A stretch of DNA of 64,000 nt, from positions 1 to 64,000 of the forward strand of contig CANRLC010000001.1 in the NCBI GenBank assembly GCA_947631405.1, in the 5' to 3' direction. The notes beneath the pieces were generated by a model. It ran no database searches. It was not told the DNA's origin and saw only the letters and a list, made by a program, of their open reading frames with translations. A program made the position numbers and the translations under genes. Source of the DNA: an uncultured Clostridia bacterium. GTDB lineage: Bacteria > Bacillota > Clostridia > Christensenellales > Aristaeellaceae. Below are positions 1-55,095 of this stretch, in pieces (position 1 is the stretch's first letter; every line of letters starts with the position of its first letter).

Positions 1-59
1 GTTGGGGCTACCGCCCCAAACCCTGTCTGGGGACATTGTCCCCAGACCCCATCCTGTGA
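1..59 (+). repeat. Hairpin repeat family, copy 1 (cut by window edge)
   Basis: This copy contains two consecutive perfect hairpins. The first has stem TTGGGGC and loop TACC (2-19); the second has a 10-bp stem GTCTGGGGAC and loop ATT (25-47). The sequence is identical to 6511-6564 apart from one base near the end. The left part of the element lies outside the window. It stops about 25 bases short of the stop codon of the VanW gene, so it lies just 3' of that gene and antisense to it. Confidence 0.85.
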
Positions 60-85
60 TATAAAGATTCTAGCTGAAAAAAGTA

Positions 86-2385: not shown

Positions 2386-4740
2386 GTGGACGAACAGATG
2401 AACGAAAGCTCCCAGCCGCCTCGCCGCAGGCGCGCCGCAGCGCAGGAAAAGGCGCTGGAGGAGATCGCGAAGCTTGAGCAGGAGGAATCCGCCTCCGTTA
2501 CGAAAGCGCAAACGCGGACCCCGTCGCCCGCGCAGGAACGTCCCGCCGTCAATCCGCAGACTTGGCAAGAGGACATGGAGAGCGAGGATTATCGCCACCA
2601 CCATTCCGGCCGCCGTCGCCGCCGCAGCAATTCCGGCTGCCTTGTGGCCGTGATCGTGCTGCTGCTCGCGCTGCTGGCCGTGCTCGTGCTCGGCTGGGTG
2701 ATCTTCCCCGAGCAGCGCGAGGCGCTGATGAACGGCGTCAACCCGCTCTCGCTCCCGCAGAGCACGACGCCCGCGCCGGTTCCCGTTCAGTGGGCGACCG
2801 AGGCCCCGCAGGACGCGTGGAACGCGTTCGGTGCGACCGACGCGCCGCTTGCGACCGAGACGCCCGCAGGCGCTTTGATCTTTGGCGCGTCCACGCCGCT
2901 CCCGCAGCAGGCGCCCACGGCGGAGCCTTCCCAGAGCGCGAGCGCCGTCTATCTGCCCGGCGGGGCCGGCGTCGCCACGGCGGAGCCGCTTCCGACGCCC
3001 ACGCCTACGCCGACGTCCACCCCGACACCGACCCCGACGCCGACGCCGTCTCCGACGCCCACGCCGACGCCCACCCCGACGCCGACGCCCGTGCCGACAC
3101 CGACCCCGACGCCCACGCCGACGCCGACGCCCACCCCGACGCCGACGCCCACGCCGACCCCGTCTCCGACCCCGACCCCGTCGCCCACGCCCAGCCCGAC
3201 GCCGTACATCGCGTCCAAGGCGAGCGCCGCTGAGGGCGCCGAGGCTTCGGCGCTGATCGCAAGCAGCTTTGCCGTGACGGGCGGCGCGCAGCAGGAGAGC
3301 CTCACGCAGGACGTCTCCATGGGCGATCCGGATGTCTACGCCCGCGAGGACGGCGTGCTCACCTTCCGCGGCGGCCCGCTGCGCCAGAATGCGGCCTACG
3401 GCACGGTGAATGTGGAAAGCGCGCAGCTCGCCGTGCTGCGCGGCGTGCGCACGACGATGCTGGGCACCAAGACCGGCTTTGGCTACGGCTCGCAGCCCGT
3501 GATCGTCAAGTGGTATTCCAACATCCGCGAGATGATGGATCTCTCCGACGCCGCGCGCGCGACGACCGCCCTCAAGGAGGTTATTTTCCCGTCGGACGAC
3601 GGACGCATCTACTTCTTCAACCTCGACGACCAGACCTACACGCGCGACCCGATCGACGTGGGCCTGCCGATGGGCGTCGCGGCGAGCGTCAACCCCTACG
3701 GCTACCCGCTGCTCTACGTCGGCCAGAAGGACAACGCGGCGCTCGATTACGAGGGCGTCATGGGCATGCGCGTCTACAACCTCGTCGATCGCACGCTGGC
3801 GGCGTTCAGCACGGGATTTGACGAGAACGCGACGAACGCGGCCTCCGGCGCGATCTCCGGCGCGGCGCTGGTGGAGTCCGGCTCCGACACGCTGATCTAC
3901 GGCTCCGACAACGGCCTGCTCTACACCGTCAAGATGAACACCAAGATGGATCTGGATGCGGGGACGGTCTCCGTCTCCCCGGAGAGCGCGGCCTACGGCT
4001 ACGCCTCCGCGACGCGCGGCGACCCGAAGGGCATCCCGTCGAGCGTGGCCGCCTACGGCGATTACGCCTTCTTCGGCGACCGCGCGGGCATCATCCAGTG
4101 CGTCGATATGAAGACCATGCAGCCCGTCTGGGCCTTCGACATGGGCGACACCGTGCTCGCCAACGTCTCCCTCGAGGTCGGCGAGGACGGAGAGGTCGCG
4201 CTCTACGCGGGCGACGTCATCGAGCAGAGCGGGCGCAGCGGCCCGGTGCGGCTGGTCAAGCTCGACGCCATGACCGGCGAGCTGCTCTGGGAGTATCAGG
4301 GCCAGCTCCGCGGCAAGTTCAATTCCAAGAGCGCCAAGGCCGGAACCTACGCGGGCCTGATGGCCTCGCCGCTGGTGGGTCAGGGCGACATCGACGATCT
4401 GGTGATCTTCAACCTCAACAACATCGACGAGGACGGCAAGGATTCTTCCTTCTACTCGGTGGTGGTGGCGCTGGATAAGCAGACCGGCGAGGAGGTCTGG
4501 AGGCAGCCGCTCTACGTCAACTCCGAATCCTCTCCGATCGCGCTCTACGAGCCGACGGGCAAGAGCTATCTGGTCATGGGCGACGACAACGGCACCCTGC
4601 GCCTGATGGACGGCTTCACCGGAAGCACGATCAGCACTGTGGAGCTGGGGTCGCCGATCAAGGGTTCGCCCGCGGCATACGGCAATCAGATCGTCGTGGG
4701 CACGACGGGCGGCTTGGTGTACTTCGTCGAGCTGCAATAA
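2386..4740 (+). CDS. Membrane-anchored PQQ-like beta-propeller protein with Thr-Pro linker
   Basis: The product has 784 residues from a GTG at 2386, with GAGG ten bases upstream; an ATG four codons later is the alternative. Residues 1-80 are charged and cytoplasmic, 85-107 form one transmembrane helix, 110-200 are Pro/Thr/Ala-rich, 203-275 are an almost pure Thr-Pro linker, and about 315-784 look like a PQQ/WD40-like beta-propeller with repeated blocks of the type [16 protein letters not shown] and EVWRQPLYV. The layout suggests an extracytoplasmic propeller held away from the membrane by a rigid spacer that may cross the wall. Its ligand or partner is unknown. The gene has its own promoter and a hairpin after it. 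Confidence 0.85.
2992..3210 (+). repeat. Thr-Pro coding repeat
   Basis: An imperfect hexanucleotide repeat (ACGCCG / ACGCCC / ACCCCG units) encodes about 70 residues of Thr-Pro dipeptides, with occasional Ser-Pro and one Val-Pro, inside the beta-propeller protein. Third codon positions are mixed, so the repeat is much cleaner in protein than in DNA. Confidence 0.9.
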
Positions 4741-4814: not shown

Positions 4815-6314
4815 ATGCGCTACGTCGTCGCGCTCGATCAGGGCACGACCAGCTCCCGCGCCGTTCTCTTTGACGAGCAGGCGCGCGTGGTGGCGATGAA
4901 GAGCCACGAGTTCGCGCAGATCTATCCAAAACCCGGCTGGGTCGAGCACGACCCGGCGGCCATTCTCGGCACGCAGCTCGACGCGCTGCGCGAGGTGGTC
5001 GCCATCTCCGGCGTGTCGGTTGCGGACATCGCGGCGATCGGCATCACCAACCAGCGCGAGACGACGCTGCTCTGGGATCGCAAGACGGGCCAGCCCGTGT
5101 ATAACGCGATTGTCTGGCAGTGCCGCCGCACCGCGCCGCTGGTGCGCCGCCTGTGCGAGGAGGGGCTGGAAGCACACATCCGCGAGACGACGGGCCTCGT
5201 GCCGGACGCGTACTTTTCCGGCACCAAGCTCTGCTGGCTGCTGGACACGCTGGGCCTTCGCGAGCGCGCCGAGCGCGGCGAACTGTGCTTTGGCACGGTG
5301 GACAGCTTCCTCGCGTATCACCTGATCGCCGAGCGCCCGCACGTCACCGACGCGACCAACGCCAGCCGCACGATGCTCTACGACATCCACAAGGGCGATT
5401 GGGACGACGAGCTGCTGCGCGCGCTGCGCATCCCGCGCGCGCTGCTGCCGCGCGTGGTGGATACCAGCGGCGTGATCGGCATGCTCGACCCGCAGATCCT
5501 CGGCCGCGCGATTCCCGTGGCGGCGCTGGCGGGCGACCAGCACAGCGCGCTCTTCGGGCAGGGCTGCTTTGAGCCGGGCATGATGAAGAACACCTACGGC
5601 ACGGGCTGCTTCCTGCTCATGAACGCGGGCGATGCGCCCGTGCGCAGCCAGAGCGGCCTCATCTCCACCGTCGCGTGGCGGCTGGGCGGGCGCACGACCT
5701 ACGCGCTGGAGGGCAGCGTGTTCGTCGGCGGCGCGGTCGTGCAGTGGCTGCGCGACGAGATGAAGCTGATCTCGCGCGCGTCGGAGACGGAGGCCATCGC
5801 GCGTTCCATCCCGGACAGCGGCGGCGTCTATGTCGTGCCGACGTTCACGGGGCTGGGCGCGCCGTACTGGGATATGGACAGCCGCGGCGCGATTCTGGGG
5901 CTTACGCGCGGTTCGGGGCGCGCGCAGATCGTCCGCGCCGCGCTGGAATCGATCGCCTATCAGTCCGCCGACCTCGTGCGCGCGATGAGCGCGGACTGCG
6001 GCAGGCCGCTCGTGGAATTGCGCGTGGACGGCGGCGCGAGCGCAAACGGGTTTTTGATGCAGTTCCAGTCCGACCTGCTCGGCTGCGACGTCGTGCGGCC
6101 CGCCGTCATCGAGACGACGGCGCTGGGCGCGGCGCTGCTGGCCGGGCTGGCCGTGGGCGTGTGGGAGAGCGTGGACGAGCTGCGGCGCATCTGGCGCATG
6201 GATGCGCGCTTCTCCCCGAGCATGGACGAGGCCGCGCGGGGGCGCGCCCTGCGCGGCTGGCGGCGCGCGGTGGAGCGCAGCATGCGTTGGGCGGAGGAGG
6301 AGCCGCAGGGCTGA
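4815..6314 (+). CDS. glpK: Glycerol kinase
   Basis: The product has 499 residues, the usual length. It phosphorylates glycerol with ATP to sn-glycerol 3-phosphate in the cytoplasm. The FGGY-family N-terminal phosphate-binding motif DQGTTSSR (8-15), the [10 protein letters not shown] glycerol-site motif (near 79) and the C-terminal [13 protein letters not shown] block are all present. The ATG follows AAAGGAGG. In many Firmicutes a His in a HFYG motif before AGDQ is phosphorylated by HPr; here the stretch before [11 protein letters not shown] reads [11 protein letters not shown] and I see no such His, so that activation route seems absent. There is no glpF or glpD beside it. A hairpin repeat copy lies downstream. 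Confidence 0.95.
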
Positions 6315-6420
6315 GGGCAATACGGCAAAACCCAGACTGCAAGAAACAGACTGCCGGTCTTAAAAGCGGTTTGAGACGCGCGGTCTGCGGAAGGGAAACG
6401 GCGGTTCGGGCGTCATACAA

Positions 6421-6580
6421 TTCTCAAATCAAATCATGTTCATGGTGAACCCGCCCGGGATCGCTTCGCTTCCGGGCTACTATTTGAAATCGCTTCGCGA
6501 TTTGGGATACGTTGGGGCTACCGCCCCAAACCCTGTCTGGGGACATTGTCCCCAGACCCCATCTTGTGTTTCGCACCAAA
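6421..6580 (+). repeat. Hairpin repeat family, copy 2 (most complete)
   Basis: Five hairpins occur in series: H1 GCCCGG...CCGGGC (6453-6477); H2 AAATCGC-TTC-GCGATTT (6487-6503); H3 TTGGGGC-TACC-GCCCCAA (6512-6529); H4 with a 10-bp stem and loop ATT (6535-6557); H5 GTGT-TTC-GCAC (6566-6576). The left boundary ATTCTCAAATCAAAT is shared with copy 3. All stems except the H5 wobble are perfect. No open frame with a ribosome site lies inside. The family is REP-like in form; no transposase of the kind that mobilises such repeats is in the window. Confidence 0.85.
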
Positions 6581-6596
6581 ATAAGTATCGCTATTC

Positions 6597-6639
6597 AAAA
6601 TTGCAGCTCACACTTTGCGGGCCGCAATTTTTATTTTTT
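6597..6639 (+). terminator. Terminator-like inverted repeat
   Basis: AAAATTGC (6597-6604) pairs with GCAATTTT (6624-6631) and is followed by TATTTTTT. The loop is long at 19 bases, so the call is tentative; it could terminate transcripts coming from glpK. Confidence 0.4.
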
Positions 6640-6746
6640 CCCGCGCGGTGAAATTTTCCCGCGCGGCTTTCGTCTTACATAGTGAAGCTACAAAAGCGCG
6701 TCCGCCCGCAAGGGCGGCTCAAACAGGACAAAGAGGAGGCGATTGA

Positions 6747-9272
6747 ATGAAAAGAGGTTTGGCCTGCGCGCTCGCGCTGCTGGCGGCCCTGCTGCCGCTG
6801 TGTGGCGCATGCGCCGCGGAGGAGGCGCAAAGCGTGCGGATGCTGGCCGAAGTAGGCTATGACGGCGTCTTCCCGCTGGGAAGCTGGACGCCCGTCGAGG
6901 TCGAGATCACCGCCGGCACGGACATGGATGCCCTGCTCGGCGTGCAGGTGATCGTGGAGGACGACCGCTACGACGTCGTGGAGACGCCCGTTTCGCTCGA
7001 GGCGGGGAAGACGCAGCGCGTCCGCCTGAGCGTGCAGCCGCTGCTCGAGCAGCGGCGCTTCCCGATCGCGCTCACGGACGCCGACGGGCGGCAGATCGCC
7101 GCGACGGTCGCTGCGCCCGTGCGGCTGCTCTCCAGCGACGCCGCGCTGATCGGCGTGCTGGGCGATCCCACGGGCGAGCTGGCGCAGGCGATGCGCGTGA
7201 CGGCGGGGCGCGACGCGCTCGACCGGGGCGACGCGATGGAGACCGTCTCTCTGACTGCGGAGAATTTCCCGCAGCAGGAGCGCGAACTGGCCGCGTTCGG
7301 CATGCTGGTCGCAGACGGCTTCAGCATGAGCGACCTGAGCGAGGCGCAGCAGGCGCTCGTGGTGCGCTGGCTGAAGGACGGCGGCGTCCTGCTCGCGGGC
7401 GAAGGGGAGCGGCAGTCCATTGACTGGGTCGCATCCCACACGGGCGTGAGCGCCCCGCAGGCCGGAGAAGGCGCGCTGGAAGCGGTTCGCGCCTACGCGG
7501 GATTGGCAAGCGAGGAGACGCTGCCGCAGGAGACGGCGGCCGAAAAAGCGCCGCCTGCCGCCGCGCCGCCCGGGGACGCGCTGGCGTTTGACGCGGCGAG
7601 CGGCGCGGCGTGCTTGACGGGCCTAGCCGTCGGCGAGGGCTACGCGCTGTGCGCGGGCTTTTCGCTCAGCGCGCCGCAGGCGCTCAGCGCCGCCGGGGAC
7701 GAGGCGCTCTGGCAGCGCGTCTTGCTTGAGGCCGCGCCGGAGGTCTACGAGCGGATGACGCGCACCTATAGCCGCGGCAACTGGCGCTTTTCCGAATCGC
7801 TGACGGGCATGCTGCATGTGAGCGAGGGCGTGAGCATCCTGCCCGCCGTGCTGCTGCTGGCGGCGTATGTGCCGCTGGCCGGCGTCGCGCTGTTCGCGCT
7901 GTGCAAGCGGCGCGACAGGAGCCGTGCGCTCTGGGCGCTCATCCCGCTGTGCGCCGTCGTCTGTGCGGTGCTGGTGGCGGCGCTGGGCGCTGCGCTGGGG
8001 CTTGACCGCCCGGCCGAGGCGTCGCTCACCCTCGCTCAGTACGACGCGGACGGGCTGCTGGGCGTGGAGGAGCACGCGAGCGTCGCCTATCCCACCGGCA
8101 CGCGCGCGCGCCTGACCGCCTCAAACGGCGCGCGCATCGAGCGCGGAACCGGCAGGTATTTCCACGACTGGGAGACGCCCGAAAGCGAGGACGAGATGAC
8201 GCTTCGCGACCGCGTGTATGTCTCCGGCGAGGCGGGCATCGAGCTTGCGGCGGTCGCGCCGTGGTATGAGCAAAAGCTGGTCGTGGCGGATGTCGGCGCG
8301 CCGCAGGGTGCGATTGCCGCCACCGCGTGGATGGAGGAGGACGGACTGCACGCGCGCGTGACAAACGGCACCGACGCGCCGCTCGCCGACGGCGTGCTGC
8401 TGACGGAGCTGGGCTACGCGCAGGTGGGCGATCTCGCGCCGGGCGAGACGGCGGAGGCGTTCATCGCGCTGTCCGAGGACACGCCGCTTCGCGAAAACGG
8501 GCGCGAGCGCATCTTGCCGGAAACGCTGCTGCACCGCGCGCGGTACTTTTCCGATGTGATCGACGCGATCGTCAACCCGGAGCGCGAGGCGCAGGATGAC
8601 TTTGACGCGAGCGCCCTGCCGCGGCAGGAAGCCTACGCGCGAAACGTGCTCGCGGCGGAACTGTATGCGGCGGCGGGCGATTCGACGAGCTTTGTCGACG
8701 ACCGGGTCGATTGCCTGTTCGCCGCGCGCTGCGACGCGCTGCCGCTCACGCCCCTGCAGCTGGACGGCGAGACCATCTCGCGCACGGCACACCGGGGCGT
8801 CGTCACCGCGCGGGCGGCGTTTGAGCGCGTGGGCCGCACGGGCGTCTTCTACGACCCGGAGGGCGCGCATCCGCCCCGGCGCGCCGAGACGGACGGCGAC
8901 GGCGCGCCGCAAATGGGCGAGCCGCTCGAGTCGGACTACTACGTCGCCTTTGAGGATGAGATCACGCTGGGCTTTGACCTGAGCACGCTGGGAGAGGACG
9001 AGCCGACCCTCGTGCGCCTGCTGAATCTGAGCAGCGCAAAGGAGGCTTTGGACGCCTCACTCTCGATCTACGACCACGAGGCGGGCCGCTTTGTGGAGGC
9101 GGCGCAGGCGTGGCAGATCGATCTCACGGGCGACGCGCTGCGCCGCGCGCTGGGCGAGGAGGGGCAGATCTTCCTGCGCTACTCGTGCCCGGGCGAAACG
9201 TGCGATCTGTCGATTCCGTCCATCATCGTAAAGGGCGTCGCAAAGACGCAGAAGGGAGGCGGCGCGCTATGA
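6747..9272 (+). CDS. Large exported membrane protein of an ABC-2 locus
   Basis: The product has 841 residues. A signal peptide (LACALALLAALLPLCGACA) is followed by a beta-rich extracytoplasmic domain (30-125), a GATase-like fold region (about 130-300: LIGVLGDPTG, DGFSMSDLSEAQQALVVRWL, GGVLLAGEGE), two transmembrane helices (about 361-383 and 393-413), and a second large extracytoplasmic domain (420-840). No catalytic Cys is visible in the GATase-like part, so it is probably structural. The gene overlaps the ABC ATPase by four bases (ATGA) and is followed by an ABC-2 permease, so it probably acts with that transporter. The arrangement recalls gliding/export-type loci in which a similar protein accompanies ABC-2 genes, but substrate and function are unknown. 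The start follows GAGGAGG. Confidence 0.75.
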   Translation: MKRGLACALALLAALLPLCGACAAEEAQSVRMLAEVGYDGVFPLGSWTPVEVEITAGTDMDALLGVQVIVEDDRYDVVETPVSLEAGKTQRVRLSVQPLLEQRRFPIALTDADGRQIAATVAAPVRLLSSDAALIGVLGDPTGELAQAMRVTAGRDALDRGDAMETVSLTAENFPQQERELAAFGMLVADGFSMSDLSEAQQALVVRWLKDGGVLLAGEGERQSIDWVASHTGVSAPQAGEGALEAVRAYAGLASEETLPQETAAEKAPPAAAPPGDALAFDAASGAACLTGLAVGEGYALCAGFSLSAPQALSAAGDEALWQRVLLEAAPEVYERMTRTYSRGNWRFSESLTGMLHVSEGVSILPAVLLLAAYVPLAGVALFALCKRRDRSRALWALIPLCAVVCAVLVAALGAALGLDRPAEASLTLAQYDADGLLGVEEHASVAYPTGTRARLTASNGARIERGTGRYFHDWETPESEDEMTLRDRVYVSGEAGIELAAVAPWYEQKLVVADVGAPQGAIAATAWMEEDGLHARVTNGTDAPLADGVLLTELGYAQVGDLAPGETAEAFIALSEDTPLRENGRERILPETLLHRARYFSDVIDAIVNPEREAQDDFDASALPRQEAYARNVLAAELYAAAGDSTSFVDDRVDCLFAARCDALPLTPLQLDGETISRTAHRGVVTARAAFERVGRTGVFYDPEGAHPPRRAETDGDGAPQMGEPLESDYYVAFEDEITLGFDLSTLGEDEPTLVRLLNLSSAKEALDASLSIYDHEAGRFVEAAQAWQIDLTGDALRRALGEEGQIFLRYSCPGETCDLSIPSIIVKGVAKTQKGGGAL

Positions 9273-11155: not shown

Positions 11156-11197
11156 GCATGGGAAGGAATCCGGAAACGAACACACGCTCAAAAGCTC

Positions 11198-11500
11198 TTC
11201 CGAGATGGAAGCGGCACTGCCGCCGCCGCGGCCTCGTGCGCAAAAGAAGGACATCCCAGAAAAGCCCTTCGGAGATGGAAGCGGCCACCGGCCGCCGTGG
11301 CCTCGCGCGCAAAAGAAGGATATCCCAGAAAAGCCCTTCGGAGATGGAAGCGGCCACCGGCTGCCGCGGCCTCGTGCGCAAAAGAAGGACAGCCCAGAAA
11401 AGAACTTCGGAGATGGAAGCGGTACCGCCACGGCCTCGTGCGCAAAAGAAGAACGCCCCCAAAAACTTCTTCGGAGGTGGAAGCGGCACTGCCGCCGCTG
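11198..11500. repeat. Tandem repeat, about 4.5 units of 64-70 bp
   Basis: The block GAGATGGAAGCGG recurs at 11202, 11272, 11341 and 11410, and as GAGGTGGAAGCGG at 11474, giving periods of 70, 69, 69 and 64 bases. Each full unit runs: cttcggagatggaagcgg, a variable 10-16 base GC-rich segment, ggcctcgtgcgcaaaagaag, then acatcccagaaaag or close variants. Units two and three are the most alike. The period of 69 keeps translation in frame on both strands, but no ribosome site is present, so I treat it as non-coding. Confidence 0.85.
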
Positions 11501-11514
11501 GGTAAAGTGTGTAC

Positions 11515-37463: not shown

Positions 37464-39292
<1,829 letters not shown>

Positions 39293-39367: not shown

Positions 39368-39397
39368 ATAATGCTTTTCTCAGATAAAACCATCATA

Positions 39398-39585
39398 TGG
39401 TGCGAAGCACAGGATGGGGTCTGGGGCGGTAGCCCCAACGCATCCCAAATCGCGAAGCGATTGAAAAAGGTAGCCCGGAAGCGAAGCGATCCCGGGCGGG
39501 TTGGTCATGAAAAGTTGCGGTATCTGGCCTTTGCTTGCGCAATATAACCCATGACAGAATGGCTCGATCATTTGATTTGAGAATA
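39398..39585 (-). repeat. Hairpin repeat family, copy 3 (inverted, H4 missing)
   Basis: Read on the minus strand it carries the same left boundary ATTCTCAAATCAAAT, an extra module of about 65 bases absent from copy 2, then H1 (39473-39497), H2 (39448-39462), H3 (39422-39437) and H5 (39400-39410). H4 is absent: the sequence joins the two CCCCA direct repeats that flank it in copy 2, a 26-base difference. The spacer sequences between hairpins are closely similar to copy 2. Confidence 0.85.
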
Positions 39586-39625
39586 GTTAAAGGGGTTTGC
39601 AATGCCCGGGTAAACGGGCCGTTGG

Positions 39626-39946
39626 CTATGATTTCTTTTTCGGCTTTGGCTCCGGCAGTTCCTCGACCATGGCGTCAAATAGACCTGTCAAAAACGCTTT
39701 ATTGTCAACCTCGTCCACCAGCAGCATCTCTTTCGCTCCCTCGTAGGGGGATTCATACGAAGCGGTTGGCATATAGCGGACGGCTGCTTTGGTGGGCTTT
39801 ACAAGCAGCCGGTCATCATAAATACCGCCGACGATCTTGCCGCGGTAATAGAGGATGAATTCGCCCATCATCGCCCGATAGGTGATTCCGTCCAGTTCGG
39901 ATAACTGCTCTAGAATAAAATCCAAATACCCTTTGCTCGACGCCAT
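39626..39946 (-). CDS. TfoX/Sxy N-terminal domain protein
   Basis: The product has 106 residues with a GAGGTGG ribosome site. The sequence (YLDFILEQLSELDGITYRAM, GEFILYYRGKIVGGIYDDRL) fits the TfoX N-terminal domain alone. In gamma-proteobacteria TfoX/Sxy regulates competence; stand-alone versions in Firmicutes have no known function. It ends in a basic KPKKKS tail. GC content is lower than in the surrounding operons. Repeat copy 3 lies directly downstream. Confidence 0.85.
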   Translation of the reverse strand: MASSKGYLDFILEQLSELDGITYRAMMGEFILYYRGKIVGGIYDDRLLVKPTKAAVRYMPTASYESPYEGAKEMLLVDEVDNKAFLTGLFDAMVEELPEPKPKKKS

Positions 39947-40581: not shown

Positions 40582-40593
40582 GTTTTCGGTGAG

Positions 40594-40714
40594 CGACGCC
40601 CGGGATCGCGAGACGCTGCGCGTCCACTTCCGGGCTATGTTTTCTTGTTTTGGGGAACGCCGGGGCTGCCGCTCCAGACCCTGCCCGAGGGATTTCATCC
40701 CTCGGACTCCCATC
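40594..40714 (+). repeat. Hairpin repeat family, copy 4 (diverged)
   Basis: Recognisable elements are CCCGGGATCGC...CTTCCGGGCTA (H1, with an inner GACGC-TGC-GCGTC), a TTTTGGGG.ACG.CGGGGCTGCCGCTCC segment (weakened H3; positions 40649-40674) and a H4 stem CCGAGGGAT-TTC-ATCCCTCGG (40685-40705). H4 differs from copies 1 and 2 in several paired bases but is still fully paired. The copy runs into the recX stop codon (minus strand). Confidence 0.7.
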
Positions 40715-41369
40715 AGAGGTTTGCGCGGGCTTCCTCGCGGATGCGCGCGAGAGCTTCCTTGGCGAGCGTGTAGTCAAAGCCGCGCCGGGCCAGCGCGGCG
40801 AGCAGCTTGCGCCGGTCGTCCGGGCTTTCGAGGTCGCGCCCGCGCGCGGCCTTTCTCGCGGCGAGGAGCGCGGCGTCGCGCCTTGCGTCGCCGTCCAGCG
40901 CGTCCATCGCGCCGTCGATCTCCTCGCTTGCGACGCCGCGCCTGCGCAGCTCCATGCGGATGCGCCGCTCGCCCAGCCCGCGCGCGGAGCGGGAAGAGGC
41001 GAAGCGCGCGGCGAAGTCCGCGTCGTTGAGATACCCCGCCTCCGCGAGGCGCGAGAGCGCGCGATCGACGGCGAAATCCGGGTAGGCGCTTCTTTCCAGC
41101 GCCGCGCGCAGCTCGCCCTCCGTGCGCTCGCGCACGGACAGCAGCGACACGGCGCGCTCCAGCGCGAAGGCGGGCGCGCGCTTTTCCATGAACGCGTCGA
41201 ACGCCGCCCGGTCAAACGGCGCGCCGCCGCGATAGGGGCGCTCCCGCAGCATCGCGCGGGGCATCGCGATGGTCTCGCCCGTGGAGAGCGTGAGCAGTGC
41301 GCGGCCATGGTCGCGCCGCACGCTCGCGAGCGTCAGCGGCGCGCCGGACGCGGACGCCGCGGGGTTCAC
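40713..41369 (-). CDS. recX: RecX family regulatory protein
   Basis: The product has 218 residues from a GTG at 41369 that overlaps the lgt stop (GTGA); translation is probably coupled, as no ribosome site is visible. Tandem three-helix repeats are seen, with the family pattern LSVRERTEGELRAALERSAY, LAEAGYLNDADFAARFASSR and GLGERRIRMELRRRGV. RecX binds RecA and limits its filament activity. recA is not in the window. The stop lies against repeat copy 4. Confidence 0.85.
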   Translation of the reverse strand: MNPAASASGAPLTLASVRRDHGRALLTLSTGETIAMPRAMLRERPYRGGAPFDRAAFDAFMEKRAPAFALERAVSLLSVRERTEGELRAALERSAYPDFAVDRALSRLAEAGYLNDADFAARFASSRSARGLGERRIRMELRRRGVASEEIDGAMDALDGDARRDAALLAARKAARGRDLESPDDRRKLLAALARRGFDYTLAKEALARIREEARANL

Positions 41370-54986: not shown

Positions 54987-55004
54987 CTGCTCAAAACAGG
55001 TTTC

Positions 55005-55095
55005 GTCGCTTCCCTACGGTAGGATTACCTACAACAGGTTCAAAGGGACAGGCCTTTCGGCCATCTCAGCGGTTAAGCGCCCCCAGCGGTACATG
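55005..55095 (-). ncRNA. TPP riboswitch (THI element)
   Basis: On the minus strand the THI box is clear: CTGAGATGG, then CCCTTTGAACCTG, AGGTAATCCT and CGTAGGGAAG, closed by the P1 stem CGCTT (55075-55079) with AAGCG (55007-55011). TPP binding is expected to allow the downstream terminator and lower thiT expression. Confidence 0.95.

Follow-up and report, generated by a model that had tools for sequence, protein, structure and literature searches.

Four copies of a hairpin array in the window

The window analyzed here is a 64-kb stretch of DNA (64,000 nucleotides) at the start of a contig in the draft genome of an uncultured Clostridia bacterium (the host genome). Its main feature, at 6416 to 6588 on the plus strand, is an intergenic series of hairpins set between short terminal repeats. 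On its left lies CA (6414 to 6415), the presumptive left copy of the target duplication as read from the sequence and the rule of the family, the right counterpart being CG at 6589 to 6590. The left terminal repeat, TACAATTCTCAAATCA (6416 to 6431), aligns with the copy consensus TACTATTCTCAAATCA. It is followed by a small leading hairpin, GTTCATGGTGAAC (6438 to 6450), evident in the sequence and in the DNA fold, and then by H1, GCCCGG..CCGGGC (6453 to 6477), H2, AAATCGCTTCGCGATTT (6487 to 6503), H3, TTGGGGCTACCGCCCCAA (6512 to 6529), and H4, GTCTGGGGACATTGTCCCCAGAC (6535 to 6557), all evident in the sequence and in folds. H5, GTGTTTCGCAC (6566 to 6576), is read from the sequence and is weak in folds. 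The right terminal repeat, AAGTAT (6583 to 6588), is a decayed form of the consensus TTATCTGAGAAAAGTAT. Together with the adjoining CTAC (6477 to 6480), H1 reads on the minus strand as GTAG plus an imperfect palindrome, a REP-like head.

An earlier note on this DNA had described five serial hairpins at 6421 to 6580. By inspection of the sequence all five are present with perfect or near-perfect stems, and the array is real: its folding z-score is −5.5 with RNA and DNA parameters alike, and 0 of 200 dinucleotide shuffles fold as well. The boundaries were too narrow, the terminal repeats placing the copy at 6416 to 6588. The element has no match among the Rfam 15 covariance models, nor does the second hairpin element described below; the sole Rfam match is a TPP riboswitch (RF00059, 65 bits) at 54994 to 55094 on the minus strand, outside the element. 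Within 6200 to 6800, the sole intrinsic terminator site (a stem and then a T-run) is at 6615 to 6627, also outside the element.

The earlier note listed four copies in the window, all between genes. All four exist and all are intergenic, but their extents and hairpin numbers differ from those given. The first (1 to 85, plus strand) is cut by the contig start; by copy alignment, what is left starts shortly before H3 and takes in the right terminal repeat (70 to 86); exactly at its right end is the TGA stop codon (86 to 88) of a VanW-domain gene on the minus strand (86 to 1345). The inverted copy at 39371 to 39588 (minus strand) has both terminal repeats, with H4 deleted; it is flanked by an atpC-like gene (38891 to 39292, plus strand) and a TfoX_N-domain gene (39626 to 39946, minus strand). 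The copy at 40589 to 40712 (plus strand) belongs to a diverged subfamily without H2 and without terminal repeats, carries an extra hairpin nested in H1, and abuts the TGA stop (40713 to 40715) of a recX-like gene on the minus strand. The contig starts within a copy and further copies are found at the ends of contigs, so the assembly is probably interrupted by the repeat. The window holds two other repeats: a unit of ~69 bp in four degenerate tandem copies at 11190 to 11502, intergenic, and a long intragenic run of CCGACGCCCACG-type repeats at 2950 to 3233, apparently a proline/threonine-rich linker.

The arrays belong to an abundant family with defined ends

The host genome is a 2.28-Mb draft in 68 contigs, estimated to be 94% complete. 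The sequence read amounted to 0.98 Mb, of which 0.74 Mb (736 kb) was chosen without regard to the repeat and the remainder lay around copies. BLAST identified 148 candidate places in the genome, and the 40 that were scored have 88 to 100% identity. A profile found ~35 copies in the 736-kb repeat-blind sample, which extrapolates to roughly 100 to 120 per genome, and a genome-wide search by end pattern returned 61 right ends and about 75 left ends, compared with 0 to 2 in a reversed control. Overall, the 2.28-Mb genome contains roughly 100 to 150 copies.

Alignment of the copies defines a unit of ~170 to 365 bp comprising the left end TACTATTCTCAAATCA, the hairpin array, the right end TCTGAGAAAAGTAT, and a target-site duplication of 2 to 3 bp. 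The ends form terminal inverted repeats, TACTATTCTCAAATCA / TCTGAGAAAAGTA(T), also written as TACTATTCTCA and TGAGAAAAGTAT. Identical 3-mers flank 18 of 35 end pairs (10,000 permutations give a mean of 6.5 and at most 14), the duplication being so short that its exact length is uncertain. Length varies through an optional stretch of ~55 bp after the left end and through a second hairpin element lodged in the loop of H3. This second element, with core GGGGAACTCGCATAGTCGCGAGC..GCTCGCTCCTTGCGATTCCCC + GCGTTCCGCC.., occurs in some H3 loops, once twice in tandem, and also in other species; examples are L110 (G000:C48:2598-2936), L106 (G000:C60, from 4468), L118 (G000:C42), L149, and L152. It may itself be mobile, preferring hairpin loops. 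One copy, L105 (G000:C41:19197-19468), is interrupted within H1 by an apparent IS3-type insertion sequence that reaches the contig end.

Of 24 other species in the genus, 11 contain relatives of the element, several of them (G018, G020, G011, and G017) with very many candidates. In G010, G018, and G020, the same ends and duplications surround hairpins of other sequence. Other families of the order give almost no BLAST matches, and a covariance model finds further out only generic hairpin relatives without the element ends; the related arrays in other genera are generic tandem GC hairpins with no recognizable ends. Records of phages, plasmids, and viral contigs contain no match to the element; one viral contig has an exact match to its left end.

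Right ends often coincide with stop codons, antisense to the gene

Genes were called with a codon model trained on the host genome, and each right end's three bases were checked against gene stops. They coincide exactly with the neighboring gene's stop codon in 31 of 61 cases, the element being always antisense to that gene, which is left intact; TAA, TGA, and TAG have all been entered. Distances from right end to stop show a spike at 0 (the same 31), then scatter at 4, 7, 8, 12, and on. About half of the copies, the window's main copy at 6416 to 6588 among them, lie elsewhere than stop codons, at other intergenic sites. Of the 55 right ends at TNA sites, 30 are at stops; since 10% of all noncoding TNA sites belong to stop codons, this is far above chance (P = 2e-16).

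These counts bear on the possibility that the element is an ordinary MITE with a T-A target and that the stop pattern is pure survivorship, the stop codon being the safest T-A site left after losses in genes, promoters, and terminators. The distribution of copies fits such a filter: they avoid genes and divergent (promoter) regions, with 0 copies in divergent regions though these are 57 of 455 background regions; they favor convergent regions; and half lie at other intergenic sites. The local background points the other way. Each local empty intergenic region was rebuilt and its allowed sites counted for both orientations; other candidate sites are present in these regions. Antisense stop insertions number 18 of 33 against 3.2 expected (P = 4e-12), whereas sense stop insertions are at chance, with 2 seen and 2.1 expected. 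Between tandem genes, 21 right ends point toward the 3' end of the upstream gene (18 of these lie exactly at its stop) and 6 point the opposite way. A spike at exactly 0 with scatter from 4 bp on is likewise not what survivorship alone leads one to expect. We regard pure survivorship as possible, at clearly under even chances. Because the mirror-image sense insertion, which would be equally harmless and also keeps the stop, stays at chance, we favor a stop preference that would arise at least partly during the choice of insertion site and not through survival alone.

The preference extends beyond the host. In G018, 4 of 12 right ends lie at stops whose genes look convincing, as do 2 of 2 in G010, and G020 has one sense case. 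In loci of other species and genera (L081, L223, and L220), generic tandem GC hairpins of the H3-H4 type lie a few to ~30 bp past stops, without recognizable terminal repeats.

Comparison with relatives provides filled and empty sites. The alanyl-tRNA synthetase C terminus, ..IKAVIGAKPED followed by the stop, is common to the host, G011, G008, G019, G014, and G007. The host gene carries the element at the stop; in G011, G008, G014, and G007 ordinary 3' sequence comes after the stop, and no element is present. In G018, G010, and G019, related arrays lie antisense, close to the alanyl-tRNA synthetase stop. A Prs-like gene is filled in the host and has its native stop, with no element, in 24 of 24 other species.

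Junction letters and a proposed reconstruction of the stop

The letters at the junctions suggest how a stop codon could survive insertion. The right side is nearly always T-N-A, and the first position on the left side is T or C, the C mostly as CTA, that is, TAG. Since the right-end search pattern itself contained the terminal T, this asymmetry is partly by construction; the single stop-type exception to T on the right is C42:9838. At stop insertions with an intact left copy, that copy reads TGA, TAA, or TAG in gene orientation, and three of them have TAG beyond the left end but TAA where the gene stops.

A strict 3-bp TNA duplication was set aside for a 2-bp reading, right ends being nearly always T and left ends T or C. 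The simplest reading of these letters is a duplication of 2 bp (TR) joined to the initial A of the element itself, which would complete a TRA stop; the alternative, which we favor less, is that 3 bp were duplicated and later changed. The junction in gene direction would then be T-R / A-TACTTTTCTC, the stop being split after its second base and restored as TRA by the first base of the element, as judged from the letters of the duplications, chiefly those at TAG sites. There, the terminal base of the element itself seems to turn the stop into TAA.

The hairpins are nearly frozen within the genome and covary between species

Between species, two-sided changes occur at 11 pairs of the stems, and the covariation score is 0.141 compared with 0.084 for shuffles (0 of 500 as high). 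The fraction paired falls by half when the partner is shifted by one base. H2 reads GGCGCTACGCGCC in other copies, the changes being compensatory. Copies in the host genome have nearly invariant hairpins, whereas variation in their linkers and right-end sequence reaches 20 to 50% per site, in a sample limited to copies with GCCCGG at the start of H1. In the sample collected by ends, the hairpins are mostly perfect (0 to 1 change), interrupted, or deleted, whatever the decay of the ends, and they show 0 to 1 changes even in copies whose end repeats carry 2 to 3. This pattern suggests either continuing homogenization of the array or purifying selection on it; either would yield what is seen. The repeat is not confined to the four copies of the window (148 candidate places), lies between genes, and retains its pairing, and on all three points the earlier note's description of a dispersed, paired, intergenic element holds.

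The constancy of the hairpins raises the possibility that the array is an RNA element selected by the host at mRNA 3' ends, a stabilizer or processing site as the earlier note had also proposed, for which the terminal repeats would be merely a vehicle. Near-invariant hairpins in copies with decayed ends, compensatory changes between species, location at gene 3' ends in a fixed orientation, the strength of the hairpins, and similar tandem GC hairpins without these ends behind genes in other genera would all fit such a role. However, one-sided changes of the G-U type are few (9 cells versus 38 two-sided), which fits DNA palindromes or replacement of whole hairpins equally well; function alone requires no distance of exactly zero; and a stabilizer is not needed to explain the copies. 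Judged on sequence comparison, this reading seems to us possible, and slightly less probable than survivorship. Both remain serious rivals of a preference exercised during site choice, because a benefit of the antisense orientation, with its hairpins right behind the stop, could also yield the bias.

The element is probably a MITE and differs from known repeats

In ends, duplication, copy number, and filled versus empty sites, together with its absence of coding capacity, the element works like a MITE and is filed as one, which bears out the earlier suggestion of a nonautonomous mobile repeat. A transposase binding the terminal repeats would presumably move it in trans; we infer this step because no transposase with the element ends was found. 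In the draft host genome, no right/left end pair up to 6 kb apart encloses a transposase, a search that took in many unpaired ends as well, and the sole DDE_Tnp_1 match is without element ends.

Groups of the IS5 family use TNA or short T-A targets and make duplications of 2 to 3 bp. The target type and duplication length of the element are alike; no transposase with the element ends was found here. The bacterial MITEs RUP (pneumococcus), Correia/NEMIS, and ERIC share with it a length of ~100 to 200 bp, terminal inverted repeats, duplication at a T-A step, extragenic location, high copy number, strong stem-loops, and the absence of a transposase of their own (PMC2229807). They are mostly A+T rich, with a stem that joins the two ends, and that source gives no stop-codon rule for them; in contrast, the element described here is a GC-rich series of separate hairpins lying antisense at stops. 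YPAL/RU-2 of Yersinia resembles it in not being A+T rich and in having internal inverted repeats, target duplications, and filled and empty sites (PMC2229807). It differs from YPAL, whose duplications are 3 to 26 bp at dyad-symmetric sites, whose ends lack T-A, and for which that paper reports no stop-codon rule.

The earlier note had called the array REP/BIME-like and proposed a search for a RAYT-like transposase. REP units carry a GT(A/G)G-type head beside an imperfect palindrome. In form, the likeness (PMC2817692) is confined to H1: of 92 instances, 83 carry a G(T/C)AG head (GTAG 59, GCAG 24) on the 5' side of an imperfect palindrome, and this head is not constant in other species. The copies are also extragenic, numerous, and hairpin-based, with species-specific sequence and palindromes that are kept. 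The whole unit departs from it: REP/BIME elements are palindromes without terminal repeats or duplication, and the element has both, with several different hairpins in fixed order. The RAYT search was negative in the draft host genome, where PF01797 (Y1; RAYT/IS200) gave 0 matches while control genomes were positive. RAYT-like genes do occur in two other species of the genus, L237 (G003:C53) and L238 (G020:C97), but these adjoin a different palindrome, of GTAGGGGAGGGGCTCTGCTCCTCCC type. The two genes share one neighbor gene, and the G020 copy has an internal stop; a match in G024 looks like a plain IS200-type protein. Since the RAYT test failed and the unit has ends and a duplication, we do not file the element as REP/BIME, and its spread by a RAYT (Y1) transposase is, for this genome, highly improbable.

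Implications of a repeat that favors stop codons

Collectively, these data make it likely that the feature at 6416 to 6588 is a copy of a MITE whose right end has a preference, in antisense orientation, for the stop codons of neighboring genes, and that this preference stems at least partly from site choice. Neither the element ends nor the insertion at stop codons was part of the earlier note. A stronger form of this reading is that the insertion step itself is directed to stop codons in one orientation, with a cut behind the second base and the stop rebuilt by the element's first base, such that many unrelated protein genes would become safe landing sites. We put this forward tentatively, at about one chance in three. 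Directed insertion would need something that senses the end of translation, for example a linkage to mRNA or the ribosome at gene 3' ends.

Safe-site insertion in bacteria is known at tRNA ends or in single genes, by recognition of a fixed sequence. The nearest kind of case that we met is that of the GInt islands, which overlap the end of one ssb gene at a fixed site (PMC5385486). Among open-licence papers, which do not amount to proof of absence, we found no report of a bacterial repeat inserting at stop codons and no description of a stop-codon target preference for any such repeat.

A small repeat that finds the stops of many unrelated genes in a single orientation cannot be using a long shared sequence. 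Such a pattern would mean either that transposition is coupled to gene ends in some new way or that selection filters insertions with unexpected sharpness. The near-frozen hairpins in copies that have otherwise decayed, in turn, offer a clean natural case in which to ask whether dispersed palindromes are selected or homogenized.
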